From Candidatus Halobonum tyrrellensis G22 (GTDB lineage Archaea > Halobacteriota > Halobacteria > Halobacteriales > Haloferacaceae), in NCBI RefSeq assembly GCF_000495475.1, contig NZ_ASGZ01000064.1:124001-188000 (forward strand): 64,000 bases of DNA. Direction: 5' to 3'. Below are positions 44,313-62,696 of the stretch, piece after piece. Every line of letters starts with the position of its first letter. Position 1 is the stretch's first letter. Position numbers and translations under genes: made by a program. The notes under the pieces were generated by a model. The model did no database searches, had not been told where the DNA came from, and saw only the letters and a program-made list of their open reading frames with translations.

Positions 44313-45083
44313 ATGGTCAACGACTCCACTGCTGGTGTTCAGCTCGCGGACAGGAACGCGGTCGTCGTCGGCGGGACGACGGGTATCGGGCGCGCGATAG
44401 CGCTCGCGTTCGCCGACGAGGGTGCGAACGTGGTCGCGACGAGTCGGTCGGACGATGCCGTCGAGGACGTGACCGCGGAACTCCGCGAACGGGGCGCCGA
44501 CACCGCGGCGGTCACCTGCGACGTCCGCGACCGCGAATCGCTCGAACGCCTCCGCGACGCCGCCGAGGAGGCGATGGGGTCGGTCGACGTGCTCGTCAAC
44601 TCCGCGGGGTCGGTCGCGAAGGCGTCGGTCACGGAGATGTCCGAGGAGGAGTGGAACCGCGACATCGACGTCTGTCTCACGGGCGTGTTCCGCGCGTGTC
44701 AGGTGTTCGGCGCCGCGATGGACGAGGGGAGCATCGTCAACATCTCCTCGATGTCGGCAGACCAGGCGCGCGAGGAGCGGCCGGCCTACTGTGCGGCCAA
44801 GAGCGGCCTCAACGGACTCACCCGCGCCGCGGCCGCGGACCTCGCGCCCGAGGTTCGGGTCAACGCGGTCGCCCCGGGGTTCGTCAAGACGCCGCTGGCG
44901 GGCGAGAAGATGGAGGAGGGCTCCGCGTTCCGCGAGGCGGTCGACGACCGCACCCCGATGGGCCGGGTCGCCGATCCCGACGAGATAGCGGGGTCCGTCG
45001 TCCACCTCGCGAGCGACGCCGCGGCGTTCACCACCGGACAGGTCGTCACCGTCGACGGCGGCTACGACATCAGCGCGAAGTAG
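44313..45083 (+). CDS. SDR-family oxidoreductase, candidate fructuronate/mannonate reductase
   Basis: A 256-residue short-chain dehydrogenase. The cofactor motif is GGTTGIGRA, with NSAG, Ser in NISSMSA and the catalytic YCAAK. The C-terminal GQVVTVDGGYDISAK is typical. It lies downstream of an IclR gene and near uxaC and uxuA. In haloarchaeal glucuronate breakdown an SDR enzyme carries out the step between uronate isomerase and mannonate dehydratase, which no other gene in this cluster provides. The assignment to that step is inferred from context, not from residues. Confidence 0.75.
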   Translation: MVNDSTAGVQLADRNAVVVGGTTGIGRAIALAFADEGANVVATSRSDDAVEDVTAELRERGADTAAVTCDVRDRESLERLRDAAEEAMGSVDVLVNSAGSVAKASVTEMSEEEWNRDIDVCLTGVFRACQVFGAAMDEGSIVNISSMSADQAREERPAYCAAKSGLNGLTRAAAADLAPEVRVNAVAPGFVKTPLAGEKMEEGSAFREAVDDRTPMGRVADPDEIAGSVVHLASDAAAFTTGQVVTVDGGYDISAK

Positions 45084-45129: not shown

Positions 45130-45257
45130 GCTCACGCCGGATCGAACCGGGCGAGAGCGAAGCTCTCGCTGGCTCGACGAGGCGTCACTCCGTCACCCCT
45201 CGTCGAACTACGCTGACTGCGTTCAGCGAGTTCGACCCGGCTCACGCCGGGTCGAAC
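45130..45257. repeat. direct repeat with two hairpins between SDR gene and enolase remnant
   Basis: GCTCACGCCGG(A/G)TCGAAC occurs at 45130-45147 and 45240-45257 with one difference; the second copy is the last codons and stop of the enolase remnant. Between them lie a perfect 8-bp hairpin (45151-45169, GCGAGAGC and GCTCTCGC around GAA) and a 13-bp near-perfect hairpin (45203-45235). The duplicated gene end suggests a local rearrangement. The hairpins resemble mobile REP-like elements. Confidence 0.5.
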
Positions 45258-45728
45258 AGTTCCTCACCCTCCTTCAGGTGGGCTTCGACCGTGTCGAGGT
45301 CGAGTTCGACGCCGAGACCCGGGTCGTCCGGGACGGCGATCCGACCGGGTTCGAGCACGTCCTCTTCGACCACGTCACCCCACCAGTCGACGTCGCGCGC
45401 GCGTGGTACTCGAGCGCCAGGAAGTTGGACGCGGCCGCGCCGACGTGGACGCTGGCCACCGTTCCGACCGGCGAGGCGACGTTGTGGAGCGCGAGCGGAA
45501 TGTGGTACGCCTTCGCCATGTCGGCTGCCTTCTTCGTCTCGTACATCCCGCTGGTCTTCGGGACGTCGGGGTGGATGACATCGACCCCTTGATTCTCGAC
45601 GAGGCGGCGTGCCCCCTCGACGCGGTAGGCGTTCTCGCCCGCGACGACGGTCACGTCCGTCTCGTTGGCCACCTCGATCTGGAGGTCCTGATTCTCCGGG
45701 GGAACGGGGTCTTCGAGCCACCAGACGT
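45242..45728 (-). pseudogene. enolase-superfamily sugar-acid dehydratase, truncated and frameshifted
   Basis: Only the C-terminal half of a mandelate racemase/sugar-acid dehydratase is left. It begins with WWLEDPVPPEN, then VVAGENAYRVEGARRLVEN, GVDVIHPDVPKTSGMYETKK and PLALHNVASPVGTVASVHVGA. A frameshift after ALEYHARA moves the end (RDVDWWGDVVEEDVLEPGRIAVPDDPGLGVELD) into another frame. The N-terminal half is gone: the frame ends at about 45728, where an unrelated fragment on the opposite strand begins. It probably once acted on an aldonic or uronic acid. Confidence 0.8.
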
Positions 45729-45925: not shown

Positions 45926-46010
45926 GAGTGTTGTGTCGGGTGCGTCGCCGGAGAGCGGGGTTCGGTCCACCAGAGCTATATCCGCGCTCGCCGACAGACG
46001 GACACCGACC

Positions 46011-47021
46011 ATGCGTTCGGAGACTCACCCGTCCGTCTCGCTGCACAACGTCGCGGAGACGACCGACCCCGACTGGACGACGGGCGGCGACCAACTGTGC
46101 CGCGTTCCCGCCTCGGTCCGGGCCGAGTTGAACGACGGCGCGAGCGACCGGCTGGCGCACGCGACCAACGCCGAACTCCGGTTCGTCCCCGAGAGCGACG
46201 GGAGCGTAGTCGAGGTGACGGTGTCCGCCGCCGAACCGGCGCGAGCGTGGGTGTTCTGGGGGTCGTTCCAGCCGTGGCAGGCCGTCGAGGTCGGGCCGAC
46301 GCCCGAGACGTTCGAACTCGGCGTGCCCGAGCGACTGCGCGAACTCGACGCGAGCGTGGATACGGGGCGGTTCGACCCGCGGCTCTGTCGAGTGCGGTTC
46401 GACCGGTTCGCGCCCGTCGCACTCCACGGCGTCGCCGGCGACTGCCGCCCCCCGACGCCGGGGGAACTCCCGGACGAGCGCTACCTCGCGTACGGCACCT
46501 CCATCACCGAGGGCGCGAAGGCGTCGGCGGCGCACCTGAGCTACGTCTCCCACGCCGCACAGCACCGGGGGTACGACGCGGTGAACCTCGGCTGTTCGGG
46601 GTCGGCGTACTGCGAGCCGGCGCTGGCCGACTACGTCGCCGCCCGCGACGACTGGGACGTCGCGTCGCTCGCGCTCTCGGTCAACATGGCGAACGGCGGC
46701 TTCTCGCCCGCCGAGTTCCGCGAGCGCGCGGACTACTTCGTGAACACCGTCGCCGGGCACCACCCGGAGAGCCCGGTCGTCTGCGTCACGCTGTTCCCGT
46801 ACTTCGCCGACGTGACCGACGGCGGCGACGCCGCCCACGCGGGCGCCTACCGGGACGCACTCCGGTCGGTCGTCGCCGACTCCCCCCACGACAACGTCTC
46901 GCTCGTGGCGGGACCCGACCTCCTGTCGGCGTCGGACCTGACGTGGGACGTGCTCCACCCCGGCGACGCCGGGATGCGGTCGATCGGCGACGGACTGGCC
47001 GAACACCTCGACACCTCGTAG
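46011..47021 (+). CDS. SGNH/GDSL-family hydrolase
   Basis: A 336-residue protein without a signal peptide. An N-terminal beta-sandwich-like region (1-150) precedes an SGNH fold. Block I has the nucleophile Ser in YLAYGTSITEG, block II is NLGCSGSAYCEP, block III is SVNMANGG, and the Asp/His pair is in DVLHPGDAGM. It resembles carbohydrate-esterase-type SGNH proteins that have an N-terminal jelly-roll. In a xylan locus, deacetylation of imported xylo-oligosaccharides is a reasonable role, not demonstrated. A TATA-like CTATATCC lies about 35 bases before the ATG. Confidence 0.85.
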   Translation: MRSETHPSVSLHNVAETTDPDWTTGGDQLCRVPASVRAELNDGASDRLAHATNAELRFVPESDGSVVEVTVSAAEPARAWVFWGSFQPWQAVEVGPTPETFELGVPERLRELDASVDTGRFDPRLCRVRFDRFAPVALHGVAGDCRPPTPGELPDERYLAYGTSITEGAKASAAHLSYVSHAAQHRGYDAVNLGCSGSAYCEPALADYVAARDDWDVASLALSVNMANGGFSPAEFRERADYFVNTVAGHHPESPVVCVTLFPYFADVTDGGDAAHAGAYRDALRSVVADSPHDNVSLVAGPDLLSASDLTWDVLHPGDAGMRSIGDGLAEHLDTS

Positions 47022-47264: not shown

Positions 47265-48206
47265 GTGACGACACTCCGAGACGCCGCAGCCGACGCCGGG
47301 GTCCACGTCGGCGCCGCCGTCGACGCCGACTCGCTCCGCACCGACACCGACTACCGGGAGACGCTCGCCCGCGAGTTCGACGCCGTGGTCGCCGAAAACG
47401 CGATGAAGTGGGGACGGCTCGCGACCGGCGAAGGGGGGTACGACTTCGCCGACGCCGACGACATCGTCGAGTTCGCGGAACGGCACGACATGTACGTCCG
47501 GGGGCACACGCTGGTCTGGCACCGGATGTACCCCGAGTGGCTCCGGCCGTGGTCGCGGTCGGAGGCGGAGGCGCGCCGCCTCCTCCGGACACACGTCCAG
47601 ACGGTCGCCGGGCGCTACCGCGGCCGTGTCGACGCGTGGGACGTGGTGAACGAGGCGGTGGCGGACGACGGCGGCCTCCGCGAGACACAGTGGCTCGAAG
47701 CGCTCGGTCCCGACTACGTCGCGGAGGCGTTCGAGTGGGCCGACGCCGTCTCGGACGCCGACCTCTTCTACAACGACTACGGCGCGGACGGCCGCTCGGA
47801 GAAGGCCGACGAGGTGTACGAACTCGTCTCCGACTTCGTCGCGCGCGGCGTCCCCATCGACGGCGTCGGCCTCCAACTCCACGTGTTCGACGAACAGGTG
47901 CCGCCCGCGGACGTGGCCGCGAACGTCGACCGGTTGACCGACCTCGGGTTGAAAGTCCACGTCACCGAACTCGACGTTGGTATCGGCGCCGCGGTCGACG
48001 ACCGCGCGGAACAGGCCGACTACTACCGCGACGTGGTGTCGGCGGCCGTCGACGCCGGCGCCGACACCGTGGTGACGTGGGGCGTCGACGACGGCCAGTC
48101 GTGGCTGCCCGTGGCGAGCGGCGGCGGCGAGAACCCCCTCCTGTTCGACGAGCAGTTCCGTCCCAAGCCCGCGCGCGACGCCGTCGTCGACGCGCTCTCG
48201 CGGTAG
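47265..48206 (+). CDS. endo-1,4-beta-xylanase, GH10, cytosolic
   Basis: A 313-residue single-domain GH10 barrel with no signal peptide. The acid/base is Glu130 (AWDVVNEAV) and the nucleophile Glu235 (KVHVTELDV). RGHTLVWH and the WGVDDGQSW motif that supports the active site are intact. A cytosolic GH10 would shorten imported xylo-oligosaccharides. It starts at a GTG about 30 bases after a TATA-like GCTTTAAG. It lies between the esterase-like gene and uxaC, on the opposite strand from the latter. Confidence 0.95.
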   Translation: MTTLRDAAADAGVHVGAAVDADSLRTDTDYRETLAREFDAVVAENAMKWGRLATGEGGYDFADADDIVEFAERHDMYVRGHTLVWHRMYPEWLRPWSRSEAEARRLLRTHVQTVAGRYRGRVDAWDVVNEAVADDGGLRETQWLEALGPDYVAEAFEWADAVSDADLFYNDYGADGRSEKADEVYELVSDFVARGVPIDGVGLQLHVFDEQVPPADVAANVDRLTDLGLKVHVTELDVGIGAAVDDRAEQADYYRDVVSAAVDAGADTVVTWGVDDGQSWLPVASGGGENPLLFDEQFRPKPARDAVVDALSR

Positions 48207-48732: not shown

Positions 48733-50100
48733 TTACAGCCCGTACAGTTCCTTCGGCCGGTCGTACGCGACGTGTTCGACGAGTCGCTCGGCGTTGTCGT
48801 ACGGGACCCGGCCGCGGTCGACCATCCGTCCCACCAGGTTCGCGAGCGTCCGGCGGAACATCTCGAACCGCGAGCCGTACGAGACGAGTTTCCGCGAGTC
48901 GCTCACCATCCCGGCGTGGTTCGCCAGCAGGTCGACCGACGCCACCCGCTCTAACTGGTTCGCCATCCCCATCGGACTGTCGTTGAACCACCACGCCGGC
49001 CCGACCGAGACGTTCGGGTACGCCCGCGCGAGCACCGTCACGTCCGGGTAGTGAGTCGGGTCGAGCGTGTACAGCACCACCTCCATCTCGCCGTCGAACC
49101 GGTCGAGGAAGTGGTCGAGACCGCCGACCACGTCCACGTCGCTCGTCGAGACGTCGCCGCCCGCGTTCGCGCCGACCCGCTCGTACAGCGACGCGCGGTA
49201 GTCGCGGACCGCCCCGACGTGCAACTGGGTCACCCAGCCCTTCTCCGCGTTCAACTCGCCGACGAACTCCAGCAGGTACGCCTTGAAGTCGCGAACCGCC
49301 CCTTCGTCGAGATTCGCCCCCCGGCGCGCCCGGTCGTACACCGCGGCGGCGCGCTCGTCGCTCACGGGGGCCGAGACGGGGTCCGTCCCCGTGCCGATAT
49401 CGCAGGCGACACAGCCGTGGTCGGCGAAGTAGTCGTGCGTCTCCGCGAGCGCGTCGCGAAAGCCCTCGAAGTCGTCGACATCGGTCTCGGTGGCCGCGTC
49501 GAGTTCGACGACGAACTCGTCCCACGCGGGCTTTTCGACTTTCAGCGCGCGGTCGGGCCGCCACGTCGGCCGGACGTCGACGCCCTCGACTTCGGTCTCG
49601 GCGCGTTCGTGGTACTCCAGCCGCGAGGTCGGGTCGTCGCTGCTGCACAGCACCTCGACGTTCATCTCCCGCAGGAGGGCCTGCGGGCGCATCTCCGGCT
49701 CCGAGAGCTGTCGTTTCGTCTCCTCCCAGATCTCGTCGGCGGTGTCGGCGCTCAGCGGCTTCTCGATGCCGAACCGCCGTTCGAGGTCGAGGTGGACCCA
49801 GTCGTAGGTGGGGTTGCCCGCGAAGTCGGGGAACACCGCCGCGAGGGCGTCCCACTTCTCGCGGTTGCTCGCGTCGCCGGTCACCTTCTCCTCGGGGACG
49901 CCACGCTCGCGCATGTGCTGCCAGACGTAGTGGTCGGTCGCGCCCTCGACCTCCCAGACGTCGTCCCACGGGTCGTCGTCGACGACCTCCGCGAGGTCGA
50001 CGTGGTTGTGGGGGTCGACCACCGGCAGGTCGGCGATCGACTCGTAGAGGTCGACCGCCGCCTCCGAGTCGAGCAGATACGTTTCGTCGATGAAGCCCAT
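48733..50100 (-). CDS. uxaC: uronate isomerase (glucuronate isomerase)
   Basis: A 455-residue amidohydrolase-fold enzyme that converts D-glucuronate to D-fructuronate. The metal-binding motif is DPHNHVDLAE near residue 30. LHVGAVRDYR, NVSVGPAWWFNDSPMGM and GMVSDSRKLVSYGSRFEMFRRTLAN are characteristic UxaC blocks. The start is at MGFIDETYLL, with a palindrome GGGTTCGAACCC (50108-50119) just upstream. It lies 62 bases downstream of uxuA on the same strand, so the two form an operon. It supplies the entry step for glucuronate released by the GH67 enzyme. Confidence 0.95.
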   Translation of the reverse strand: MGFIDETYLLDSEAAVDLYESIADLPVVDPHNHVDLAEVVDDDPWDDVWEVEGATDHYVWQHMRERGVPEEKVTGDASNREKWDALAAVFPDFAGNPTYDWVHLDLERRFGIEKPLSADTADEIWEETKRQLSEPEMRPQALLREMNVEVLCSSDDPTSRLEYHERAETEVEGVDVRPTWRPDRALKVEKPAWDEFVVELDAATETDVDDFEGFRDALAETHDYFADHGCVACDIGTGTDPVSAPVSDERAAAVYDRARRGANLDEGAVRDFKAYLLEFVGELNAEKGWVTQLHVGAVRDYRASLYERVGANAGGDVSTSDVDVVGGLDHFLDRFDGEMEVVLYTLDPTHYPDVTVLARAYPNVSVGPAWWFNDSPMGMANQLERVASVDLLANHAGMVSDSRKLVSYGSRFEMFRRTLANLVGRMVDRGRVPYDNAERLVEHVAYDRPKELYGL

Positions 50101-50162: not shown

Positions 50163-51113
50163 CTACTCCCCCCGCTCCAACAGCCCCTCGATGTAGCCGA
50201 CGGCGAACAGCCGGCCCATGTCGGTGTAGCCCGACATCGCCCCCTCGCGGTCCTCCTCGTCGAGCATCCGCGGGACGTGGTCCGGGCGGATCGGGCCGTC
50301 GAACCCCACCGCCTCGTAGGCGTCCATCGCGGCGCGCATGTCGGTCTGCCCCTCGTCGTGCCACGTCTCGACGAACCGCTCGGAACCCCCCTCCACGTCG
50401 CGGAAGTGGACGAAGTGGATGCGGTCGCCGAACGCGCGGATCGCCGCGGGCACGTCCGCGCCCATCGCCGAGAAGTTGCCCTGACAGAACGTCAGCCCGT
50501 GGGCCGGGCTGTCGTACAGGTCCAAGATCCGCTCGACGTTCTCGACGGAGGTGACCAGGCGGGGGACGCCGCGGACGGACGACACCGGCGGGTCGTCGGG
50601 GTGGAGCGCCATCCGGACGCCCGCCTCCTCGGCGACCGGCACCACCTCGTCGAGGAAGTACTCCAGGTTCTCCCACAGTTCCGCCTCCGAGATGTCGACG
50701 GGGTGGGGCGGCGCACGCTCGGACTGCTCGTGGTCGTAGACGGTGGTTCGCGAACCCCCGCGGAGCGGGTGGGCGTCGGCGGTCCGGATCACGCCGACGG
50801 GGTTCTCCGTCCACACCCACGAGTAGACGCCGACCCCCACCTCGCCCATGTTCCGGATCAGCCGCTTGACCGTCTCGATCTCCTCGTCGCGGCCCTCCTC
50901 GCCGAGCACCGTCGCCGTCATCGGCGGGCGGTCCTCCACCACGTCGAGCGAGAGACCGTGGTCGGCGAACCGGTTCCGCGTCTTCAGCAGCGAGTCGTAC
51001 GTCCACCACTCCTCCTCTCCCCAGAAACGGACGACGGCGGTCGAGAGTCCGAGCTGTCGGGCGATCGTCCACCGCCTGTCGGGGCGCGGCGGCAGCATCA
51101 GCGTCGTGTCCAT
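50163..51113 (-). CDS. uxuA: mannonate dehydratase
   Basis: A 316-residue TIM-barrel enzyme that dehydrates D-mannonate to 2-keto-3-deoxygluconate. Diagnostic UxuA motifs are VYSWVWTENP, RMALHPDDPP, GLTFCQGNFSAMG, HFVHFRDVEG and PIRPDHVPRM; the His/Cys residues in these blocks bind the metal. It is somewhat shorter than bacterial UxuA (about 390), as in haloarchaeal forms. It starts at the ATG at 51113, directly after a palindrome and a TATA-like CTATATG, and is followed by uxaC. Confidence 0.95.
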   Translation of the reverse strand: MDTTLMLPPRPDRRWTIARQLGLSTAVVRFWGEEEWWTYDSLLKTRNRFADHGLSLDVVEDRPPMTATVLGEEGRDEEIETVKRLIRNMGEVGVGVYSWVWTENPVGVIRTADAHPLRGGSRTTVYDHEQSERAPPHPVDISEAELWENLEYFLDEVVPVAEEAGVRMALHPDDPPVSSVRGVPRLVTSVENVERILDLYDSPAHGLTFCQGNFSAMGADVPAAIRAFGDRIHFVHFRDVEGGSERFVETWHDEGQTDMRAAMDAYEAVGFDGPIRPDHVPRMLDEEDREGAMSGYTDMGRLFAVGYIEGLLERGE

Positions 51114-51120
51114 ACCTCCC

Positions 51121-51137
51121 GTTCGGAAAACCCGAAC
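51121..51137. promoter_or_regulatory. probable IclR operator before uxuA
   Basis: GTTCGG, AAAAC, CCGAAC is a perfect 6-bp-arm palindrome 7 bases from the uxuA ATG and downstream of a TATA-like element. It has the GTTC-N9-GAAC form of the IclR-type sites. Its position near the transcription start fits repression. Confidence 0.55.
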
Positions 51138-51289
51138 ATATAGCTTGTGCGACGTGCCAGTTCGGGGAGATAGTCGCCGGACGGCGTCGAGTATCACGAT
51201 CGATAGAACCGTCGAAACGTACGTTATGTTTAGAAAGACTCATACGGCGCACCGCCGAGGATCCACAAGCGCGTAAGCGCACCGACACT

Positions 51290-53779
51290 ATGCCCGAAGA
51301 CGACAACAGAGCCGGCGAGCGGAGTGGCAACGCACGGAACGGACGGGACGAGGAGTCGACGCCCGACGCCGAGGGCGGTCCGCTGGGGGTCGACCGGCGG
51401 CGGTACATGCAGGCGCTGAGCGCGGCGGGGCTGGTGGGCGCCGGCGCCGCGGGCGCGGCGGCCGACGTACCGGACGCGGCGCCCCGGCAGGTGGAGGGGT
51501 CGCTCGACGCCTACCACCAGACGCTGCGTGCGGACCTGACGAGCGCCGACAGACAGCAGCGACAGCTTCCGCCCGGCGCGTGCGTCTACGCCGCGACCGA
51601 ACGGGCGGCGCTCGACGCCTTCTCCGTGGTTGGCGGCGGCAGGGAGACGCGGGTCGCGGTCGACACCGACGCGGTACCGATAACGGTCGGCGAACGAGTC
51701 ACGGTCCCCGAGGGGAGCGACGACCCCGCCGACCACGCCTACCGGGGCGAGATATCGGACCACTCGTTCGGCGAGGGCGACCTGCTGCTCGCGGTCGCGT
51801 ACCTCCGCAGCGACGACGACGACGCCGAGGTGACGGCGCGCTTCGGCTACGAGTACACGGACTCGTCGGGGGAGACGGCCACCACCGACAACTTCGTCCA
51901 GCGGTCCGCACACGTCGAGCCGAGCGAGCGGTGGATGCGCTACTACTTCCCCGTCGAGGTCGAGTCGGTTCCGGACTCGGAGGCGGTCCCGTCGGTCGAG
52001 TTCCGGACCGGCTACGGCGAACAGACCGTCGAGTTCGGTGGGCTCGCGCTGTTCGACTACGGCGGCGCCGACCTCGCGCTCGACACCCTCCCGCCGTACC
52101 ACTACGAGGGGCGCTCGCTCGACGCCGAGTGGCGCGACGCCGCCCACGACCGGATCGACGAACACCGGACGGCGGACGTGAGCGTCGAAGTCGTCGGTCC
52201 CGACGGCGAGGCGGTGTCGGGCGCGTCGGTCGACGTCGAGATGACCGACCACGAGTTCGACTTCGGCAGTGCGGTCTCGGTCGGCCAACTCACCGGCGAC
52301 ACCGAGGACGACCGGACCTATCGGGAGGTGTTCGCCGACAACTTCAACAAGGCGACCGTCGAGAACGGGCTGAAGTACCCCGCCTGGGAGGGCGTCTGGG
52401 ACATCAGCAACGAGGCGACGCGGGCGGCGCTGGAGTGGCTCAACGAGCGCGACTACCCGGTTCGGGGCCACTACCTGCTGTGGGAGCAGTCGGACAACTC
52501 GGTCGGCGGCGGGATGTCGATCGAGAACCCCGACTCCTACTCGGCCGAGGAGTTGGAGGCGCTGATCGCCGACAAGATCCGGAACCACGCCGCCGAGTTC
52601 GAGGAGGACGTCGTCGAGTGGGACATGCACAACCACCCCGTCTGGCAGAGCAACTTCCGCGACACGGAGGGACTGGGGTGGCCCGCGGTCGACAACTGGT
52701 GGGCGGCCGCCGACGAGACGACCGACCTCCCGCTTCACACCAACGAGATGGGTGCCATCGGCGGGCAGTGGCAGCGGAGCGCGTACGACGACTACATCGC
52801 CCACCTCGTCGACAACGACTACCCCATCGACGCCATCGGGTTCATGGGCCACCACCAACAGCAGTACAACCAGATACTCGACATCGAGACGATGATCGAG
52901 GGGTACGACACGTTCGCGGAGTACGACCTCCCGATGCTCGTCACCGAGTTCGACATCCAGATCTTCAGCCGGCGGAACGCCCAGGACGTCGCGGTCCAAG
53001 CCGACTACACCCGCGACTTCCTCACGGTGGCGTTCAGCAGGCCGCAGGTCGTGGGCGTCGTCTCGTGGGGGTTCTGGGAGGAGGACCACTGGCGGCCGAC
53101 CGGCGCCTACTACGACGCCGACTGGTCCCTCCGGGCGAACGGCGAAGTGTACCGGAACCTCGTCTTCGACGAGTGGTGGACCGACGCCTCCGGCACGACT
53201 GGGTCGGGACCGTACCAGGTCGACTTCGTCGCCGGAGAGGTCGAGGAGGAACTCGGCGAGAGCGAGGACGACTACTACGGCCGGCAGAACCGGCTGATCC
53301 AGTACGCCCACACCGAGGGCGGCGAGGTGGCCGACCGCGACACGTGGATCAACTCGCTCGACCCCGAGACCCGCGACGCCGTCACCGCCAGCGACGTCGA
53401 GGTGGACGACGGCACCGCCTCGGTCTCCTTTACGGTCGCCGACGGCGAGGAACTCACGCTGTCGCTGGCGGCATACACGCTGCCGGGCGGCGAGTTCTCC
53501 TTCGACACCGCGGACGAACAGGAACTCGTCGGCTCCGCCACCGAGACGTTCGGTCCCGGCGACCACAGCCTCGAAATCGACCTGCCCGAGTCGGGGGCGT
53601 TCACCACGTCCGCCTACCTCGGCGACCACGAGGTGACCGTGAGCGCCGACGGCGAGGAGACGACACGGACCGTCTCGGTGACCGAGCCGACCGAACGGAC
53701 CATCACCGTCGAACTGGAGGGGAGCGAGGAGACGACCGAGAGCGTCGACGCCGAACCCGGCGCGCTCGAAGCCGAGTGA
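51290..53779 (+). CDS. secreted GH10-like protein with substituted catalytic acid
   Basis: An 829-residue exported protein. An acidic N-terminus leads to a Tat motif (VDRRRYMQALSAAGLVG). Residues ~70-270 form a carbohydrate-binding-like beta sandwich. The GH10 barrel (~330-625) keeps DNFNKATVENGLKYPAWEG and RGHYLLW and the nucleophile Glu553 (MLVTEFDIQ). The acid/base position is His449 (VEWDMHNHPVWQ) instead of the usual Glu in NE. The shared terminal module spans ~642-770 and a beta-rich PEGA-like tail ends the chain. It is divergent from uxuA. Either it binds xylan without cutting it, or it uses a different catalytic acid. Confidence 0.9.
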   Translation: MPEDDNRAGERSGNARNGRDEESTPDAEGGPLGVDRRRYMQALSAAGLVGAGAAGAAADVPDAAPRQVEGSLDAYHQTLRADLTSADRQQRQLPPGACVYAATERAALDAFSVVGGGRETRVAVDTDAVPITVGERVTVPEGSDDPADHAYRGEISDHSFGEGDLLLAVAYLRSDDDDAEVTARFGYEYTDSSGETATTDNFVQRSAHVEPSERWMRYYFPVEVESVPDSEAVPSVEFRTGYGEQTVEFGGLALFDYGGADLALDTLPPYHYEGRSLDAEWRDAAHDRIDEHRTADVSVEVVGPDGEAVSGASVDVEMTDHEFDFGSAVSVGQLTGDTEDDRTYREVFADNFNKATVENGLKYPAWEGVWDISNEATRAALEWLNERDYPVRGHYLLWEQSDNSVGGGMSIENPDSYSAEELEALIADKIRNHAAEFEEDVVEWDMHNHPVWQSNFRDTEGLGWPAVDNWWAAADETTDLPLHTNEMGAIGGQWQRSAYDDYIAHLVDNDYPIDAIGFMGHHQQQYNQILDIETMIEGYDTFAEYDLPMLVTEFDIQIFSRRNAQDVAVQADYTRDFLTVAFSRPQVVGVVSWGFWEEDHWRPTGAYYDADWSLRANGEVYRNLVFDEWWTDASGTTGSGPYQVDFVAGEVEEELGESEDDYYGRQNRLIQYAHTEGGEVADRDTWINSLDPETRDAVTASDVEVDDGTASVSFTVADGEELTLSLAAYTLPGGEFSFDTADEQELVGSATETFGPGDHSLEIDLPESGAFTTSAYLGDHEVTVSADGEETTRTVSVTEPTERTITVELEGSEETTESVDAEPGALEAE
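53213..53598 (+). other. shared C-terminal module, GH10 copy
   Basis: From YQVDFVAGEVEEELG to LEIDLPES. It aligns with the GH2 and GH15 copies at YQVDF, AGE, EELG, QNRL, DDGTASVSFTVAD, LTLSLAAYT, TADEQEL and TFGPGDH. It lacks the two Cys and is more diverged (WINSLDPETRDAV in place of WPSAEIRDCLDYG). Unlike the other two, it is followed by another beta-rich stretch (TSAYLGDHEVTVSADG). Confidence 0.7.
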
Positions 53780-54324: not shown

Positions 54325-56571
54325 TCAGCGCTCGGCGAACTCCTCGGGGTGTTCGACCGCACCCTCGAGGGGTTCGCTCTCCCAGTACTCGTGGTCCGGG
54401 TCCTCGCGGAAGCACGCCGCCTTCCCGTCGCCGCCGTCGACGTCGAGCAGTTCGGGGTCGTCGCGCGTACACGCCTCGCGGGCGACCGGACACCGGGTGT
54501 GGAACCGGCAGCCCGACGGCGGGTCGACCGGGTCGGGCACGTCGATGTCGCGGATCGGCGGGTCGTCCGCCTCCATCGCGTCGAGGTCGAGGTTCGGCGT
54601 CGCCCACCGGAGCACCTCGGTGTACGGGTGCCGGGGGTCGTGGATCAGCCGCTCGGCGGAGCCGATCTCGACGATCTCGCCGAGGTACATCACCGCGATC
54701 CGGCCGTCGCCGTGTTCGGCGAAGTAGCGCGCGTTCGACAGGTCGTGGCTGATGAACAGAAACGAGGTGTGGAACTCCGACTGGAGTTCGAGCATCAGAT
54801 CCATGATCTCGATGCGCAGGCTCACGTCGACCGCCGAGATGGCCTCGTCGGCGAGGATCGCGTCGGGGTTCATCAACAGCGCCCGCGCGAGCGCAACCCG
54901 CTGTTTCTCGCCGCCGCTCAACTGGTGGGGGTAGCGGTCGAGGAAGTCGCCCGCGGGCGTCATCCCCACGCGTTCGAGCAGCGAGTGCATCCGGCTCCGT
55001 CGCTCGGCCCGGCCGATGTTCGGGTGGGTGTGGTGGAGCGGTTCCGAGAGGATGTCGACGATCCGCCGGTTGGGGTTGAGCGAACTCCCGGGGTCCTGGT
55101 GGATGATCTGGAGTGCCTGCCGCACCTCGTCGTACGGGATGTCCGCGTTGCCGTCCTTCGCCTCCCAGATGTCGTGCCCGCGGTACTCGATCGTCCCGCC
55201 GGTCGGCCGCTGGAGCCCGATCATCGTCTTGCCGAGCGTGGTCTTCCCGCAGCCCGACTCGCCGAGCAGGCAGACCAGGTCCTGCTCGTGGATGTCGAGG
55301 TCGATACCGTCGACCGCCTGCACGACGTCGGGGTCACCCCGGAACCGGTCGAGCAGTCCCTGCTGCTCCTCGAAGTGGACCTCGATGTCGTCGAGCGACA
55401 GCAGCGCCTGATCGCCCGCCGCGACCGCGCGGTCCTCGACCGTCGACCCCGCGGCCGGCCGCGGCGAGTCGACGCTGGCCGCGTCCGGGGCGTCCTCGCC
55501 GAAGTTGAGCGGGATCTCCTCGCGTGCCTCCTCCCAGTGGTGACACGCCGTCCGGTGGTCGGACGCCTCGTCGATCGGGGCGAAGGGCGGGTCGACCGTC
55601 CGGCACTCCTCGGTCGCCAGCGGGCACCGCGGGTGGTACCGGCAGCCCGACGGGACGTTCACCGGCGCCGGTCCCTCGCCCTCGATCGGCTGCATCTCCT
55701 CTAAGGGCGCGTCGAGGTTCGGCGTCGCGTTCAGTAACGCCCGCGTGTACGGGTGTGCGGAGTCGCCGATGATCGCGTCGCGCTCGCCGATCTCCGCGAA
55801 CTGGAACGCGTAGATGATCGCCATCCGGTCGGCGAGCGACGCCACCAGCGGGAGGTCGTGCGTGATGAAGATGATGGTGAGGTCGTACTCGTCGCGGAGT
55901 TCCTCCAACAGCCCGAGGATCGACCGCTGCATCAGCAGGTCGAGCGCGGCCGTCGGCTCGTCCATCACCAGCACCTCCGGGTCGAGCACCATGCTCAACG
56001 CGATGAGCGCGCGCTGTTGCATCCCGCCCGACAGTTCGTGCGGGTAGGAGTTGAGCACCCGTTCGGGTTCGAGATACAGGTTCTCCAGCAGTTCGCGCGC
56101 GAACTCCATCCCCTCCGAGACGTGCTTGTCGTGGCTCTTGAGCGTCTCCGTGAAGTGGGTCCCGATCTCCATGGTGGGGTTGAACGACGACATCGCCCCC
56201 TGGAACACCATCGAGATCTGCTCCCAGCGGAACTTGCGGAGTTCCTCGTCGCTCAGTTCCAACACGTCGACCGTCTCCCCGTCGGGGGGGTGATAGCGGA
56301 TCCCGCCCGTGAGCAGCCCCGGGTCGGGGACGGCGTCCATCAGCGCGGAGGCGAACATCGACTTGCCCGACCCGCTCTCGCCGACGATGCCGAGCACCTC
56401 GTGGCGGTCGATGTCGACGGTGACGTCCTCGAGGACGTACGTGTCGCCGTCGCTGTAGGTGACGTTCGCGTCGCGTATCTCCAACACCGGGTCGTCGACG
56501 ACGGTGTCGGGTTCGGTCGTCTCGTCTGTCGCGGTCGGTCGCGTACTGTCTGTGTTGGTGTCGGTGGACAT
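54325..56571 (-). CDS. ABC transporter ATP-binding protein, fused DppD-DppF type
   Basis: A 748-residue protein with two complete ATPase domains of the oligopeptide/dipeptide (Opp) family. The first has Walker A GESGSGKSM and signature LSGGMQQR; the second has GESGCGKTT and LSGGEKQR. Both halves end with the family Cys-rich element (GCRYHPRCPLATEEC and GCRFHTRCPVAREAC). The first Walker A has Met after Ser in place of Thr. Fusion replaces the usual separate D and F proteins. It powers the importer encoded upstream on the same strand, whose gene ends immediately before it (0 bases). Confidence 0.95.
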   Translation of the reverse strand: MSTDTNTDSTRPTATDETTEPDTVVDDPVLEIRDANVTYSDGDTYVLEDVTVDIDRHEVLGIVGESGSGKSMFASALMDAVPDPGLLTGGIRYHPPDGETVDVLELSDEELRKFRWEQISMVFQGAMSSFNPTMEIGTHFTETLKSHDKHVSEGMEFARELLENLYLEPERVLNSYPHELSGGMQQRALIALSMVLDPEVLVMDEPTAALDLLMQRSILGLLEELRDEYDLTIIFITHDLPLVASLADRMAIIYAFQFAEIGERDAIIGDSAHPYTRALLNATPNLDAPLEEMQPIEGEGPAPVNVPSGCRYHPRCPLATEECRTVDPPFAPIDEASDHRTACHHWEEAREEIPLNFGEDAPDAASVDSPRPAAGSTVEDRAVAAGDQALLSLDDIEVHFEEQQGLLDRFRGDPDVVQAVDGIDLDIHEQDLVCLLGESGCGKTTLGKTMIGLQRPTGGTIEYRGHDIWEAKDGNADIPYDEVRQALQIIHQDPGSSLNPNRRIVDILSEPLHHTHPNIGRAERRSRMHSLLERVGMTPAGDFLDRYPHQLSGGEKQRVALARALLMNPDAILADEAISAVDVSLRIEIMDLMLELQSEFHTSFLFISHDLSNARYFAEHGDGRIAVMYLGEIVEIGSAERLIHDPRHPYTEVLRWATPNLDLDAMEADDPPIRDIDVPDPVDPPSGCRFHTRCPVAREACTRDDPELLDVDGGDGKAACFREDPDHEYWESEPLEGAVEHPEEFAER

Positions 56572-57597
56572 TTAGACCATCCCTCCGGGCGGCGCCGTCG
56601 TGTCGTCTTCCCCTTCGATCGACTCGGACTCCCCGGAGAGCCGGGTCCGGACCCGCGGGTTGAAGATGCGGTCCATCCCCTGGCTCACGAGGATCAGGCC
56701 GAGCGCCAGTCCCACGATGGCGACGATGGGGACGAGCAGCCAGTGGAGCGCCTGCATCGTGAACAGCCCGCCCTGGTTGTACGCGTTGTTCAGCGTGACG
56801 CCCCAGTTCTGCCCCGTGTACGGGAGCACGCCGATGAAGTACAGCCCGACGGACGCGAAGATGGTGTAGCGCGCGGCGAACACGAAGTTGACCATCACGT
56901 ACGGCATGATGTTCGGCAGCACGTCCTTGACGATGATCCGGAACGTGCTCGACCCCATCGTCCGGGACGCCTCGACGTAGCTCTCCTCGCGGATCGACAG
57001 CACCTGCGAGCGTATCGAGCGCCCCAACCCCGCCCAGTAGTTGATCGTGAGGATGACCCCGAGCAGGATGGGGTTCTCCGGGCTGAACGTGATCGCCAGC
57101 ACGATCACCAGCGGCAGCCCGGGGATCGCCATGAAGAAGTCCGACACCGAGGTGATGGCGGTGTCGACGCTGCCGCCCTTGTACCCCGAGACGGTGCCGA
57201 CCATCACCGCGAGGGTGGTCGCCCACACCCCGCCCGCCAGCACCATCAGCAGGATGAACGGCGTCGAGTCGACGATCAGCGCGAACAGGTCGACCCCCGA
57301 CTGGGTCGTCCCGAGAGGGAACGCCCAGTTCTGGAACGGCGGGAGCAGCCGCGGCGCCTGGTTCGGCGAGGGGTTGCGCCAGAGACCGAACACGTCCAGC
57401 GCCGCCATCAGCAGGTAGACGCTCAGGATGATGATCCCGACCCGGGTGCGGAGGTCAGACCACGCGATTATCGCCGGCTCGCGGACCATCCGCCGGTAGA
57501 ACTCGCCGTAGCGCTCACGGCGAGTCATCTCCTCGGCGGACGCGTCCGACCGCCAGTCGACCCCCTCCTCGGAGGAGGAGTCGGTCTCAGTAGCCAT
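56572..57597 (-). CDS. ABC transporter permease (OppC/DppC type)
   Basis: A 341-residue membrane protein. A cytosolic N-terminal segment of about 50 residues precedes six helices and the family's permease loop (EASRTMGSSTFRIIVKDVLPNIMPYV). In Opp-family importers this protein and its OppB partner form the channel. The start overlaps the end of the OppB-type gene by 11 bases. In thermophiles, Opp-like importers next to xylanases and alpha-glucuronidases carry xylo-oligosaccharides, the likely substrate here. Confidence 0.94.
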   Translation of the reverse strand: MATETDSSSEEGVDWRSDASAEEMTRRERYGEFYRRMVREPAIIAWSDLRTRVGIIILSVYLLMAALDVFGLWRNPSPNQAPRLLPPFQNWAFPLGTTQSGVDLFALIVDSTPFILLMVLAGGVWATTLAVMVGTVSGYKGGSVDTAITSVSDFFMAIPGLPLVIVLAITFSPENPILLGVILTINYWAGLGRSIRSQVLSIREESYVEASRTMGSSTFRIIVKDVLPNIMPYVMVNFVFAARYTIFASVGLYFIGVLPYTGQNWGVTLNNAYNQGGLFTMQALHWLLVPIVAIVGLALGLILVSQGMDRIFNPRVRTRLSGESESIEGEDDTTAPPGGMV

Positions 57598-58585
57598 CGG
57601 CGTCCCCCGTACTGATGCGCGGGTCGATGAAGCTGTACGTCAGGTCGGCGATCGTCACCGCGACGACGAGCGTCACCGTGATGACGAGGAAACAGCCCAT
57701 CATCAGCGGGTAGTCGTTGGCGTTGACCGCCGCGATGAGGTAGTAGCCGAGTCCGGGGTACGAGAAGATCTGTTCGAGGACGACGGTCCCGCCGAGACGG
57801 AACCCGATCAACAGGAGGAGCCCGGTGTACATCGGCAGGATCGCGTTCTGCGCGACGTAGCGGGTGGCGATCCGGCCGTCACCCAGCCCGCGGAGCCGCG
57901 CCACCTCGACGTACTCCTGACCGAGCACCTGGATGCCGTTCCCGCGCATGCTCAGCGCCGTCGACCCGATCCCGCCGATCGTAAACGCCGCGATCGGCAG
58001 GATGGCGTGGTGGATGACGCTCGCGAAGTAGTCGAGACTGATCCCGGCTTCGATGTCGCGCGCGGCCGCGTTCCCCGTCGGGAACAGTTGGAGCTGGAAC
58101 GCGAGGAAGAACAGGAAGATCACCGCGAAGATGAAGTACGGAACCGCCATCACGAGGATCGACCCGCTGGAGGCGAGCTTGTCGAACGTGGAGCCCTCCC
58201 AGTACGCCTGGACGGCGCCGATTATCACGCCGCCCGCGAACATCAACAGCGTCGAGGTCACCACCAGGAACACCGTCCACGGCAGCGCCCGCGCGACCAC
58301 CTCGGCGACGGGCTGGTTGAGCGAGATGGACTGCCCGAAGTCCAACTGGACGACGCCGATCAGGTAGTCGAGGTACTGCTGCCACAGCGGCGCGTCGGGC
58401 CGGATGTTCTGGAGCGCCTCGATGCGGGCGTTGACCTGTTCGACCGGCACTCCCTGGCGGATGAGCTGGAGCCGGAGCTGCGTGAACGGTCCGCCCGGGA
58501 GCAGTCGGATCAGGCCGAACGACAACGTCGCGACTGCTAGAACGGTCAGGGGGATCCTGGCCGTCCGTCTGAGGTAATAGTTCAT
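57587..58585 (-). CDS. ABC transporter permease (OppB/DppB type)
   Basis: A 332-residue membrane protein starting with MNYYLRRTARIPLTVLAVATLSFGLIRLLPGGP, the conserved first helix of OppB/DppB proteins. The permease loop EYVEVARLRGLGDGRIATRYVAQNAILP is intact. It is 46 bases downstream of the binding-protein gene and overlaps the OppC-type gene. Together they would import an oligosaccharide or oligopeptide; locus context favours the first. Confidence 0.94.
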   Translation of the reverse strand: MNYYLRRTARIPLTVLAVATLSFGLIRLLPGGPFTQLRLQLIRQGVPVEQVNARIEALQNIRPDAPLWQQYLDYLIGVVQLDFGQSISLNQPVAEVVARALPWTVFLVVTSTLLMFAGGVIIGAVQAYWEGSTFDKLASSGSILVMAVPYFIFAVIFLFFLAFQLQLFPTGNAAARDIEAGISLDYFASVIHHAILPIAAFTIGGIGSTALSMRGNGIQVLGQEYVEVARLRGLGDGRIATRYVAQNAILPMYTGLLLLIGFRLGGTVVLEQIFSYPGLGYYLIAAVNANDYPLMMGCFLVITVTLVVAVTIADLTYSFIDPRISTGDADGY

Positions 58586-58631
58586 AGTCGTCTACTGGAG
58601 TTGCAGTCTCAAACGATTTGGGTCTTACGGA

Positions 58632-60458
58632 CTACCCCCGGTACTGGAGGTCGCCCTCGTGGACCCACCAGAACGGCGGCCACTTGACCTGACGGTTGGC
58701 GTTGCCCTCCTCCGCCACCGTCCAGTCGTCGTCCGTGACCCACGACTGCTCGAACTTCGACACCAGCCCGAGGAACGGCAGGTCGATGTGGTTGTACCAC
58801 GCCGACCGCTGGACGTACTCGCGGGAGGCGTCGTCGTCCGGCTGTCGGGCGATCTCTCGACAGACATCCAGCGGGTTGAGCGTCATCTCGCCGCCGTCGC
58901 GGCCGGGCACCGTCTGTTCCGACTCGGCGATCGACCGGTAGTTGTGCCCGCCGCCGATGTCGGTCGCCCACAGCTGGTAGTACAGCGGGAAGTAGGGGAA
59001 CGCCGACCGCGACCCGCCGGGCAGCCAGTAGAGACTCCCCAGCCCGAAGTTGCTCTCGGAGTACTGGCTGAACCAGTCGTTCGTCGGGAGCGTGCTGATC
59101 GAGAAGTCGAACCCGAAGTCGTTCAACTGGCTGACCGTCGTCTGGGTCATCGTCGTCCAGTCGGTCCACCCCGCCGGCGAGTAGTAGTCGCCGCCGATGG
59201 TGCTCCCGCTGGAGTCGACCCAGTTGCCACCCTCCATCGAGTAGCCCGCCTCCTCCATGAGCGCGGTCGCCCGGTCGGTGTTACTCGACTCGGGACCGTA
59301 CGTCTCGAAGTCGTCCATCCAGTCGCCGAGCCAGTACTCCTGGTCGCGCGGGGCGATCCCACACGGGGACGGGGTGACGAACTTCGTCCGCGGCCCGGCG
59401 TTGTCGACCAACCGCTGTCGGTTGATGACGTGCGCGACCGCCTGTCGGACGTTCCGCTTCCCGAAGTGCTCGTGTTCGTGGTTGAAGACGATCCCGTACC
59501 CCCACTTGGCGGGGATGTTCACCTCGACCACGTGGTCGGGGAACCGGTCGGCGATCTCCGGCGGGGTGAACAGGCTCGTCGCCGCGTCCACCTCGTTGCC
59601 CGAGATGAGCGCCTGGTGTTGGGCGGTGTTGCCGCCGTAGCTCTCGATCAGGTAGCTCTCGAAGTTGACGTTGTCCGACTTGTAGAACTCGGGGTTGCGC
59701 TCGAACTCGAACGCCTGCTGGTCCTTGTTCACGAACTGGAACATCCCGCTCGCGATCGGGTCCTCCCAGGCCCACTGGAGGAACTCCGAGACGTCGGCGT
59801 CGAGCCACTCCTCGTGGGTCTCGGCCTTCGTGTCGATGAAGAAGTTGGTGAGTTCGAACCGGAGGATCTGCGGGTTCGTCTCGCCCGACAGCGTCAGCCG
59901 GGCGGTGTAGTCGTCGACGATCTCGTAGTCGTCGAGGTAGCCCCAGATCGAGCTCTCCGTCTGCCGTGCGAGCTGGATCTGCACCTCGAAGTCCTCGGTC
60001 GTCCACTCGTCGCCGTTGCTCCAGACGATGTCGTCGCGGAAGGTGAGCGTCGCCTCGGTTCCCTCGATCTCCAGATCCTCGAGCGCGCCGTAGATGAACT
60101 CGGTCTCGGTGAACGAGTACTTGAGGTACGGCGCGAACACCGCCCGCCCGGCGGGCCAACTGTAGTTCTGTGTCGCCGAGGAGTTGAAGTGGAGGTCGAC
60201 CGGGTTGCCCGTGTAGGCGTTGACGAACGTGGCGTCGTACACCTGCATATCCCCCGACCCGGTGTCGGTCCCCGTCCCCTCGGACCCCGAGTCGGTGTCC
60301 TCCCCGTCGGTGTCCGTGTCGGCGGTCGTCCCCTCGCCGCCGCCCCCGCCGGAACAGCCGGCGAGCGCCGCGACCCCCGAGGCCCCGGCCGCCGCCAGCA
60401 TCTTCCGTCGACTGACGACGTCGTCGTAGTCGCTACCCTCACCGCTATCAGGTTCCAT
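58632..60458 (-). CDS. ABC transporter substrate-binding lipoprotein, family 5
   Basis: A 608-residue binding protein. The N-terminus carries a Tat motif (SRRKMLAAAGASG) and the lipobox LAGC, then a Gly/Thr/Asp-rich linker with repeated TDTD units. The body follows the SBP_bac_5 pattern (LTFRDDIVWSNGDEWTTEDFEVQIQ and IVFNHEHEHFGKRNVRQAVAHVINRQRLV). Family 5 proteins bind peptides, nickel or oligosaccharides. Because it is divergent from the alpha-glucuronidase, methylglucurono-xylo-oligosaccharides are the likely ligand. A TATA-like TTATGATAAC lies upstream. Confidence 0.93.
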   Translation of the reverse strand: MEPDSGEGSDYDDVVSRRKMLAAAGASGVAALAGCSGGGGGEGTTADTDTDGEDTDSGSEGTGTDTGSGDMQVYDATFVNAYTGNPVDLHFNSSATQNYSWPAGRAVFAPYLKYSFTETEFIYGALEDLEIEGTEATLTFRDDIVWSNGDEWTTEDFEVQIQLARQTESSIWGYLDDYEIVDDYTARLTLSGETNPQILRFELTNFFIDTKAETHEEWLDADVSEFLQWAWEDPIASGMFQFVNKDQQAFEFERNPEFYKSDNVNFESYLIESYGGNTAQHQALISGNEVDAATSLFTPPEIADRFPDHVVEVNIPAKWGYGIVFNHEHEHFGKRNVRQAVAHVINRQRLVDNAGPRTKFVTPSPCGIAPRDQEYWLGDWMDDFETYGPESSNTDRATALMEEAGYSMEGGNWVDSSGSTIGGDYYSPAGWTDWTTMTQTTVSQLNDFGFDFSISTLPTNDWFSQYSESNFGLGSLYWLPGGSRSAFPYFPLYYQLWATDIGGGHNYRSIAESEQTVPGRDGGEMTLNPLDVCREIARQPDDDASREYVQRSAWYNHIDLPFLGLVSKFEQSWVTDDDWTVAEEGNANRQVKWPPFWWVHEGDLQYRG

Positions 60459-60620: not shown

Positions 60621-62696
60621 ATGGATCAGTACGACGACTGCTGGCTCCGCTACGACTCCCCCGCGGACGGCGACCGTCTCGACGCCTACCGGCGGCGGTG
60701 CGTCCACGCGTACGTCTCGGAGGGGGCGCCCGAACTCGCCGCGGTCCGGGACGAACTCCGGCGGGCGGTTCCGAGCCTCCTCGGCCGGGACCCCCACCTC
60801 TGGCAGCACCCGCCGCGGACGGTCGACGGGTTCCTCGCGGTCGGCACCCCCGACGAGATGGCGATGGTGGCCGAGTCGGTGCCCGTCGACGAGGTGGAGA
60901 GGTTCGCGGACGGCGGCTACCTCCTCCGGTCGGTCGAGTGGGAGGGGATGGACTGTCTGGTCGTGACCGCCGCCTCAGACCGCGGGCTGGTGTACGGCAC
61001 GTTCCACCTGCTCCGCCTGCTGAGCACGGGCGAACCGGTCGACGACCTAGACGTGCGCGAGGAACCCGCGTACGCCAACCGGGTGATCGACCAGTGGGAC
61101 ACCCCGTTCCACCGCTCGGTCGAACGGGGGTACGGCGGGGAGTCGATCTTCGACTGGGAGCGGCTGCCCGACCTCCGGCCGCGATACGAGGACTACGCGC
61201 GCCTCCTCGCCTCCGTCGGCGTGAACGGTATCGTCCTCAACAACGTCAACACGGAGAAGCCGCCGCGGGCGAGCGCGAACCCCGCCTTCGACGCGTTCGA
61301 GGGGTGGCAACTGCTCGAACCGCGGCGGCTCGAAGCGCTCACCGGTCTCGCGGCGCTGTTCCGCCGGTACGGGATCGAGACGTACCTCTCGGTCAACTTC
61401 GCCGCGCCGATGCTGTTGGGCGACTGCGACACCGCCGACCCCCTCGACGACGAGGTTCGTGCGTGGTGGGAGCGGAAGGCCGAGGAGGTGTACGACCTGA
61501 TCCCCGACTTCGGGGGCTTTCTCGTCAAGGCCGACTCGGAGGGCCAACCCGGCCCGTACGACTACGGCCGCGACCACGCCGAGGGCGCGAACGCCATCGC
61601 GGCGGCGCTCGCCCCCCACGGCGGGCGCGTGTTCTGGCGCGCGTTCGTCTACGGCTCCCACGACGACCGCTCGGTGCAGGCGTACGAGACGTTCGACCCC
61701 CTCGACGGCGCGTTCGCCGACAACGTCACCGTCCAAGTGAAGAACGGTCCCATCGACTTCCAGCCGCGCGAACCCGTGTCGACGCTGTTCGGGTCGATGC
61801 CCAAGACGGACCTGGCGCTGGAATTGCAGGTGACCGGCGAGTACACCGGCCAGGGCGTCCACGCCGCCTACCACCACCCCATGTGGACGGAGGTGTTCGA
61901 GTTCGACACCCACGCCGACGGCGCGGGCACGCCCGTCAAGTCGCTGTTCGGCGGCGACGGCGAGGGGGTCGTCGGCGTCGGCAGCGTCGGCGAGGACCGC
62001 AGTTGGACCGGCACCCACCTCGCGCAGTCGAACCTCTACGCGTTCGGCCGGGCGGCGTGGGACCCCGACCGCTCGACGGGGACGGTGACCGACGAGTGGG
62101 TTCGCCAGACGTTCGGTACGGACGGCGAGGTGGTCGACACCGTCGCCGGGATACTCCGCGACTCGTGGGCGGCGTGTGTCGACTACACCACCGGCGGTCT
62201 CGGCCTGATGCACATGATGCACAACGGCGAGGAGTTGCTGGAGAACCACTACGAGCCGTCGCCCGGCGAGTGGCCGGGCTACCACGGCATGACCGACGAC
62301 GGCGTCGGCGTCGACCGGAGCGCGTACGCCGCCCAGTACCCCGACCCGGTCGCCGACCGCTACGCGTCGGTCGACGACTGCCCCGAGGAACTCCTGCTGT
62401 TCTTCCACCACCTCCCGTGGGAGCACGAACTCGCCGACGGGACGACCGTCGTCCAGCGGCTGTACGACAACTGCTTCGCGGGCGTCGAGGAGGCGAAACG
62501 GCTCCGCGAGCGGTGGAACTCGCTCGACGGCCGCGTGGACGACCGCCGGCACCGCCACGTCGCCGAGCGGTTCGACGAACAGGTCGCGAGCGCCGAGCGG
62601 TGGCGCGACAGCCTGACCGCCACGTTCTACGACTACTCGGGGGTCGCCGACGAACGCGGGCGCGTCCCCGCGGGAGACGGAGCGGGGAGCGCGTAA
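60621..62696 (+). CDS. alpha-glucuronidase, GH67
   Basis: A 691-residue cytosolic enzyme that removes (4-O-methyl)glucuronic acid from the end of xylo-oligosaccharides. The catalytic acid is Glu307 (LVKADSEGQPG), and the base pair is Asp379 (NGPIDFQPREP) and Glu407 (LQVTGEYTG). The spacing between them matches characterised GH67 enzymes. NVNTEK and GLGLMHMM are further family motifs. There is no signal peptide, so the substrate must be imported, consistent with the divergent Opp-type transporter. The released glucuronate would feed uxaC. The ATG at 60621 starts the conserved MDQYDDCWLRY. Confidence 0.96.
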   Translation: MDQYDDCWLRYDSPADGDRLDAYRRRCVHAYVSEGAPELAAVRDELRRAVPSLLGRDPHLWQHPPRTVDGFLAVGTPDEMAMVAESVPVDEVERFADGGYLLRSVEWEGMDCLVVTAASDRGLVYGTFHLLRLLSTGEPVDDLDVREEPAYANRVIDQWDTPFHRSVERGYGGESIFDWERLPDLRPRYEDYARLLASVGVNGIVLNNVNTEKPPRASANPAFDAFEGWQLLEPRRLEALTGLAALFRRYGIETYLSVNFAAPMLLGDCDTADPLDDEVRAWWERKAEEVYDLIPDFGGFLVKADSEGQPGPYDYGRDHAEGANAIAAALAPHGGRVFWRAFVYGSHDDRSVQAYETFDPLDGAFADNVTVQVKNGPIDFQPREPVSTLFGSMPKTDLALELQVTGEYTGQGVHAAYHHPMWTEVFEFDTHADGAGTPVKSLFGGDGEGVVGVGSVGEDRSWTGTHLAQSNLYAFGRAAWDPDRSTGTVTDEWVRQTFGTDGEVVDTVAGILRDSWAACVDYTTGGLGLMHMMHNGEELLENHYEPSPGEWPGYHGMTDDGVGVDRSAYAAQYPDPVADRYASVDDCPEELLLFFHHLPWEHELADGTTVVQRLYDNCFAGVEEAKRLRERWNSLDGRVDDRRHRHVAERFDEQVASAERWRDSLTATFYDYSGVADERGRVPAGDGAGSA

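Follow-up and report, generated by a model that had tools for sequence, protein, structure and literature searches.

Few glycosidase families have been studied as well as GH10, whose pair of catalytic glutamates is regarded as invariant and serves as a criterion in annotation. In the 64,000 nucleotides of Candidatus Halobonum tyrrellensis G22 DNA analysed here (the window), a secreted GH10 protein carries a histidine, His449, at the position of the acid/base glutamate. Is this protein a dead copy of a xylanase, or does it catalyse with a different residue? A preliminary description of this DNA had offered both options, a pseudo-enzyme or an enzyme that uses His or another residue as the acid. 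The evidence discussed below leans to the catalytic option, with the pseudo-enzyme kept as a rival, and the secreted His-type GH10 of haloarchaea is, on the sequences compared, probably an enzyme with altered chemistry and not a dead copy.

The answer matters in either case. If a natural His clade is selectively maintained, the acid/base residue would be swappable in the GH-A barrel, and an active clade would be a natural partner for the laboratory E128H mutants and would make testable which accompanying changes (Met519, Glu486) allow His to function. If the clade is inactive, a conserved pseudo-xylanase is misannotated as endo-1,4-beta-xylanase and the predictions of xylan breakdown for several haloarchaea would be wrong.

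Gene, domain architecture and fold

The His-type GH10 protein (829 aa) is encoded at 51290-53779 on the forward strand by an open reading frame whose GC3 is 0.936, compared with 0.933-0.944 in its neighbours. Secretion, which had been proposed earlier, agrees with a Tat-type N-terminus that reads DRRRYMQALSAAGL, in which the signal spans residues 35-60 (DRRRYMQALSAAGLVGAGAAGAAADV; 51392-51469), and motifs of the RR-x-x-L-K/Q type are present in nearly all homologues with readable N-termini. The signal is followed by an N-terminal beta-rich region (residues 70-270; 51497-52099) that is mostly strands in a low-confidence model and gave no match in a Pfam search, by the GH10 (beta/alpha)8 catalytic domain (residues 319-604; 52244-53101), and by a C-terminal module (residues 636-802; 53195-53695). 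A GH43 protein with CARDB domains, encoded elsewhere in the same genome (L069 476-3346, contig C5), has in its later portion a module 61% identical to this one, and modules of this type are widespread in haloarchaeal genomes.

The catalytic domain matches Pfam Glyco_hydro_10 (PF00331) with an E value of 5.5e-27 and a score of 95 bits (cut-off 22 bits), and the nearest solved structure by sequence is XynA 7d88 (E 1.9e-37; 27-28% identity). An AlphaFold2 model built from 23 sequences, which included GH10 proteins from viral-contig loci, reaches a pLDDT of 71.8 overall, and most of its barrel strands lie at about 87-96; an earlier model from 6 sequences was poor (pLDDT 52.8). The best PDB matches of the larger model (Foldseek, VIA-align) are all GH10 xylanases, with a Z of 29.5 to 7d88. 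In its secondary structure His449 is immediately C-terminal of strand 4, and Met519 and Glu553 are modelled in the strands that bear Gln205 and the nucleophile in GH10. By similarity, barrel fold and the beta-7 nucleophile Glu, the protein belongs to the GH10 sequence family. The canonical two-Glu label is not applicable to it because the acid/base Glu at the end of beta-4 is replaced by His449.

The acid/base site

Residues were mapped onto S. lividans XlnA (1e0w), and subsite roles were taken from the TmxB list (PMC6163442) and transferred via XlnA numbering. His449 (codon CAC, 52634-52636) aligns on the acid/base residue Glu128, and the nucleophile Glu553 aligns on Glu236; the preliminary description had reported both the substitution and the kept nucleophile, with residues and coordinates that proved correct. 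Glu553 and Asp555 (XlnA Asp238) are encoded at 52946-52954 and His521 (XlnA His207), a partner of the nucleophile, at 52850-52852. Met519 (52844-52846) takes the position of Gln205, a conserved -1 subsite residue, and Glu486-Met487 (52745-52750) take those of Asp171-Tyr172, the Tyr being a +1 subsite residue.

Glutamate codons are GAR. The CAC codon at residue 449 lies two base changes away from them, so a single base-call error cannot account for the histidine. Sequence error or gene decay is excluded by this two-base change, by the sharing of His across 24 alignment rows and by a dN/dS of about 0.2. Misalignment with a true Glu adjoining the site is likewise excluded, as in every member the NHP block lines up with NEP, and a search of the alignment for an acid/base Glu elsewhere near the site, which had been named as a check on the claim, found none at the beta-4 end of the His-type members. 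His449 is a genuine substitution and not decay.

The His-type clade

Homologues were sought with the protein in 391 Halobacteria genomes, named genomes and plasmids. Close relatives, down to about 40% identity, read WD(M/V)HNHP where Glu-types read WDVVNEP. In an alignment of 147 rows the acid/base position is Glu in 122 and His in the remainder; once the window's duplicate was removed, 24 His rows remained. One of these is a fragment of a gene represented by another row, and the filter had merged one more, near-identical gene (L036), so the number of distinct His-type genes is 24. All 24 rows share His, Asn448 (the -1 Asn127 of XlnA) and Pro450, with Glu in none, counts which share ancestry and do not represent independent events. 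The nucleophile Glu, the equivalents of His207 and Asp238, and Trp593 are kept in 23/23 covering His-type rows, the -1 residue His394 (XlnA His81) in 22/23, and the -1 residues Trp398 and Trp601 (XlnA Trp85, Trp274) in 22/22.

Among the conserved -1 residues only two have changed, and both uniformly: Glu128 to His and Gln205 to Met. Met519 is present in all 23 covering His-type rows and in none of the 122 Glu-type rows, which have Gln there. Glu486 is also present in 23/23, whereas Glu-type rows mostly have Asp (109/122) at that position, with Glu in 11/122. The position of the +1 Tyr172 holds Met, Leu, Ala or Gly, mostly Met (Met487 here). Between close His-type pairs dN/dS is about 0.16-0.25. 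The earlier argument that the change is not local decay is correct and is much strengthened by the clade of 24 genes and, as far as sequences can tell, the His-type active site is rebuilt, not eroded.

Two His-type genes are interrupted. In G264 (L012, minus strand around 2236-2238) a single in-frame TGA falls at the -1 Trp codon (W398 of the window protein) in a gene that is otherwise intact, and the Halocatena RDMS1 copy is annotated as two pieces. The related genomes G281 (L006/L037/L181) and G137 (L007/L036/L180) each hold three His-type paralogues plus Glu-type GH10s; the G281 contig matches strain HArc-gm2, for which growth on xylan has been reported (PMC9726719). Two copies on Halocatena marina plasmids (L176, L177) are divergent His-types that read WDVINHP and retain the Met and Glu co-substitutions. 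L176 has sulfatases, GH78 and rhamnosidase fragments nearby and may therefore act on another polysaccharide.

The scan of genome contigs gave His-types in haloarchaea only, viral contigs and phage records gave none, and two Bacteroidota plasmid relatives were both Glu-type, bacterial genomes being covered in part. The alignment with His-type homologues from other phyla that had been suggested earlier was thus realised with 24 haloarchaeal genes and none from other phyla. No report of a natural His-type GH10 was found in the open-access literature searched.

In a tree without the Halocatena rows, built after the key columns had been removed from the alignment, all His rows group together (SH-aLRT 99), and a single change explains them. 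With Halocatena included, Glu-type proteins of G265 separate two His groups and two changes are needed; forcing all His rows into one clade costs 6.4 log units and is rejected marginally (p-AU 0.042). His may have been gained twice with the same partner residues, or gained once and reverted in G265, and the sequences can be read equally well either way. A broader reading, which we hold at somewhat less than even, is that this is a natural GH-A-clan clade in which Glu was replaced by His and the second shell was rebuilt (Gln to Met, Asp to Glu, +1 Tyr to Met), possibly twice in Halobacteria, to give a competent His-dependent (glucurono)xylanase or transferase.

Genomic context

The His-type gene is preceded in the window by genes for an IclR-family regulator (43283-44038, +), which is conserved beside the His-type gene, an SDR dehydrogenase (44313-45083, +), a GDSL esterase (45987-47021, +; start uncertain), a cytosolic Glu-type GH10 without signal peptide (47265-48206, +), the glucuronate isomerase UxaC (48733-50100, -) and the mannonate dehydratase UxuA (50163-51197, -; start uncertain). 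It is followed by an oligopeptide/oligosaccharide-type ABC importer (54325-60458, -), comprising fused ATPases, two permeases and an SBP_bac_5 binding protein, and by a GH67 alpha-glucuronidase without signal peptide (60621-62696, +; start inferred from sequence; PF07488 1e-125). The cytosolic GH10 retains WDVVNE and VTELD, and hence both glutamates, as had been stated. A short remnant at 45251-45540 (-) is 71-78% identical to a mandelate racemase-family gene that encodes 395 aa in the Halorussus vallis locus.

With GH67, an intracellular GH10, an importer, uronate catabolism and a secreted GH10-type protein, this is, by its predicted gene products, an aldouronate (glucuronoxylan) utilisation locus. 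Several genera share most of the window's gene order at their His-type genes. GH67 is present in 16/17 His-type genomes compared with 39/391 sampled overall (p 6e-17, a value that ignores descent), in 10/11 His-type genera compared with 25/86 (p 8e-6), and in 16/27 genomes that have only Glu-type relatives (p 0.015 against the 16/17).

G286, a genome from the family to which the window genome belongs, has the order GH4-SDR-UxaC-UxuA-[GH10]-ABC-permeases-SBP-GH67, and the GH10 in the slot of the His-type gene (L375 5871-7682) is a Glu-type protein of 603 aa with a Tat signal and the motif EWEVYNEAIH. That the His-type gene fills the slot of a secreted xylanase counts for its being an enzyme. 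The two genes also make a useful natural comparison pair.

Proposed function and mechanism

We predict from these comparisons, with slightly more confidence than doubt, that the protein leaves the cell by the Tat route, is either free or located at the cell surface, and acts as a retaining endo-beta-1,4-(glucurono)xylanase with His449 as its acid/base. It would perform the extracellular first step of the aldouronate-utilisation locus by cutting glucuronoxylan to (methyl)glucuronosyl-xylo-oligosaccharides, which would be taken up by the adjoining ABC importer and dismantled by the cytosolic GH67 and the cytosolic Glu-type GH10, with UxaC/UxuA consuming the uronic acid. In the Geobacillus model an extracellular GH10, XynA1, acts at this step and releases aldotetraouronic acid (PMC4194401).

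The reaction would be a double displacement in which Glu553 is the nucleophile at C1, as in ordinary GH10 enzymes, and His449 stands in for Glu128, first as the general acid and then as the general base. Met519, in place of another -1 residue (Gln205), may tune His449, and Glu486 is a candidate partner of His449 by analogy with the Asp of other His-using glycosidases. Histidine serves as the general acid of GH117, and the same role has been proposed for it in GH156 and GH3 NagZ; in all three an Asp is paired with the His (PMC11574756). When the His-type rows are compared with these His/Asp dyads at the level of sequence, His449 is invariant and Glu486 is an invariant candidate partner. The fixed His together with Met519 and Glu486 (and mostly Met487), next to an otherwise intact -1 subsite and nucleophile triad, leans the evidence to catalysis.

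With natural-type substrates, a laboratory GH10 xylanase carrying the N127S/E128H substitutions formed a covalent xylobiosyl-enzyme as well as Michaelis complexes, the latter with xylopentaose (PMC5811086; PDB 5gqd/5gqe), and its Michaelis complex was considered to mimic the wild type well (PMC5811086). The covalent intermediate indicates that His at the acid/base site is compatible with the first chemical step. That the intermediate could be crystallised counts against the proposal, since His may not be an effective base for the deglycosylation step.

Alternative explanations

The main rival, which we regard as unlikely but serious, is a xylan-binding pseudo-enzyme that has lost its acid/base, binds (glucurono)xylan or its oligosaccharides at the cell surface and helps in their capture or delivery to the importer. 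The absence of the acid/base Glu from all members fits this explanation, and so does the secretion of the protein together with its extra N-terminal beta-rich and C-terminal parts. Other secreted xylanases are at hand in some genomes: secreted Glu-type GH10s, which could carry out the hydrolysis, are encoded in several His-type genomes, and GH11 in two. However, nine genomes encode no secreted GH10 other than the His-type protein; GH11 occurs in two of these and is absent from seven, and no GH30 was found in the nine (nor GH5 in the window genome), so loss of activity would leave several genomes without a known extracellular GH10, GH11 or GH30 endoxylanase. The pattern of change also speaks against mere binding. 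Binding alone would not require the nucleophile triad, yet the triad is invariant, and loss of function usually leaves varied residues, not one fixed residue with fixed co-substitutions. Halocatena L176 has lost the -2 residues Glu44, Asn45 and Lys48 but retains the His of the acid/base site, Asn127, Met205, His207 and the nucleophile; a protein that gives up sugar binding at -2 and keeps its catalytic core is the opposite of what is expected of a binding protein.

It is also conceivable, though improbable, that the protein is an active retaining enzyme with another chemistry, either transglycosylase/phosphorylase-like transfer or hydrolysis in which the glucuronate carboxylate of the substrate assists as the acid and a neutral or positive His accommodates the anion. 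The locus processes uronic acids, the +1 Tyr172 has given way to Met, Leu, Ala or Gly, and GH3 enzymes with a His acid/base have been reported as phosphorylases (Macdonald 2015, as cited in PMC11574756). A phosphorylase would be expected inside the cell, whereas a Tat motif is found in nearly every member with a readable N-terminus, and transfer chemistry has no direct evidence in its favour. That another side chain, most likely Glu486 (XlnA Asp171, lengthened), is the true acid and His449 a structural or relay residue is less probable again, for despite the switch from the prevalent Asp to an invariant Glu there, ordinary GH10 also has an acidic residue at this position and yet uses Glu128 as its acid.

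Comparison with known systems

The protein shares with the GH10 xylanases S. lividans XlnA and XynA 7d88 the fold, the nucleophile Glu with its His-Asp partners, and the -1/-2 residues. It differs from both in the replacement of the acid/base Glu by His, Gln205 by Met, Asp171 by Glu and the +1 Tyr172 by Met. The engineered SoXyn10A N127S/E128H (PDB 2D20, 2D22, 2D24; with T82A in addition in 5GQD and 5GQE) likewise places His in a GH10 barrel, but this mutant is laboratory-made and has Ser127, whereas the natural His-types have retained Asn127 and carry Met205. GH3 NagZ, GH117 and GH156 also have a His in the general-acid role of a glycosidase; they belong to other families and have a known Asp partner for their His, whereas His-type GH10 has a candidate only. 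XynA1 of the Geobacillus hemicellulose utilisation locus occupies the same position in the pathway, with a secreted GH10, an importer, GH67 and a uronate pathway. It is described as an active xylanase, while the His-type protein discussed here is archaeal, Tat-exported and accompanied by an importer of the SBP_bac_5 type.
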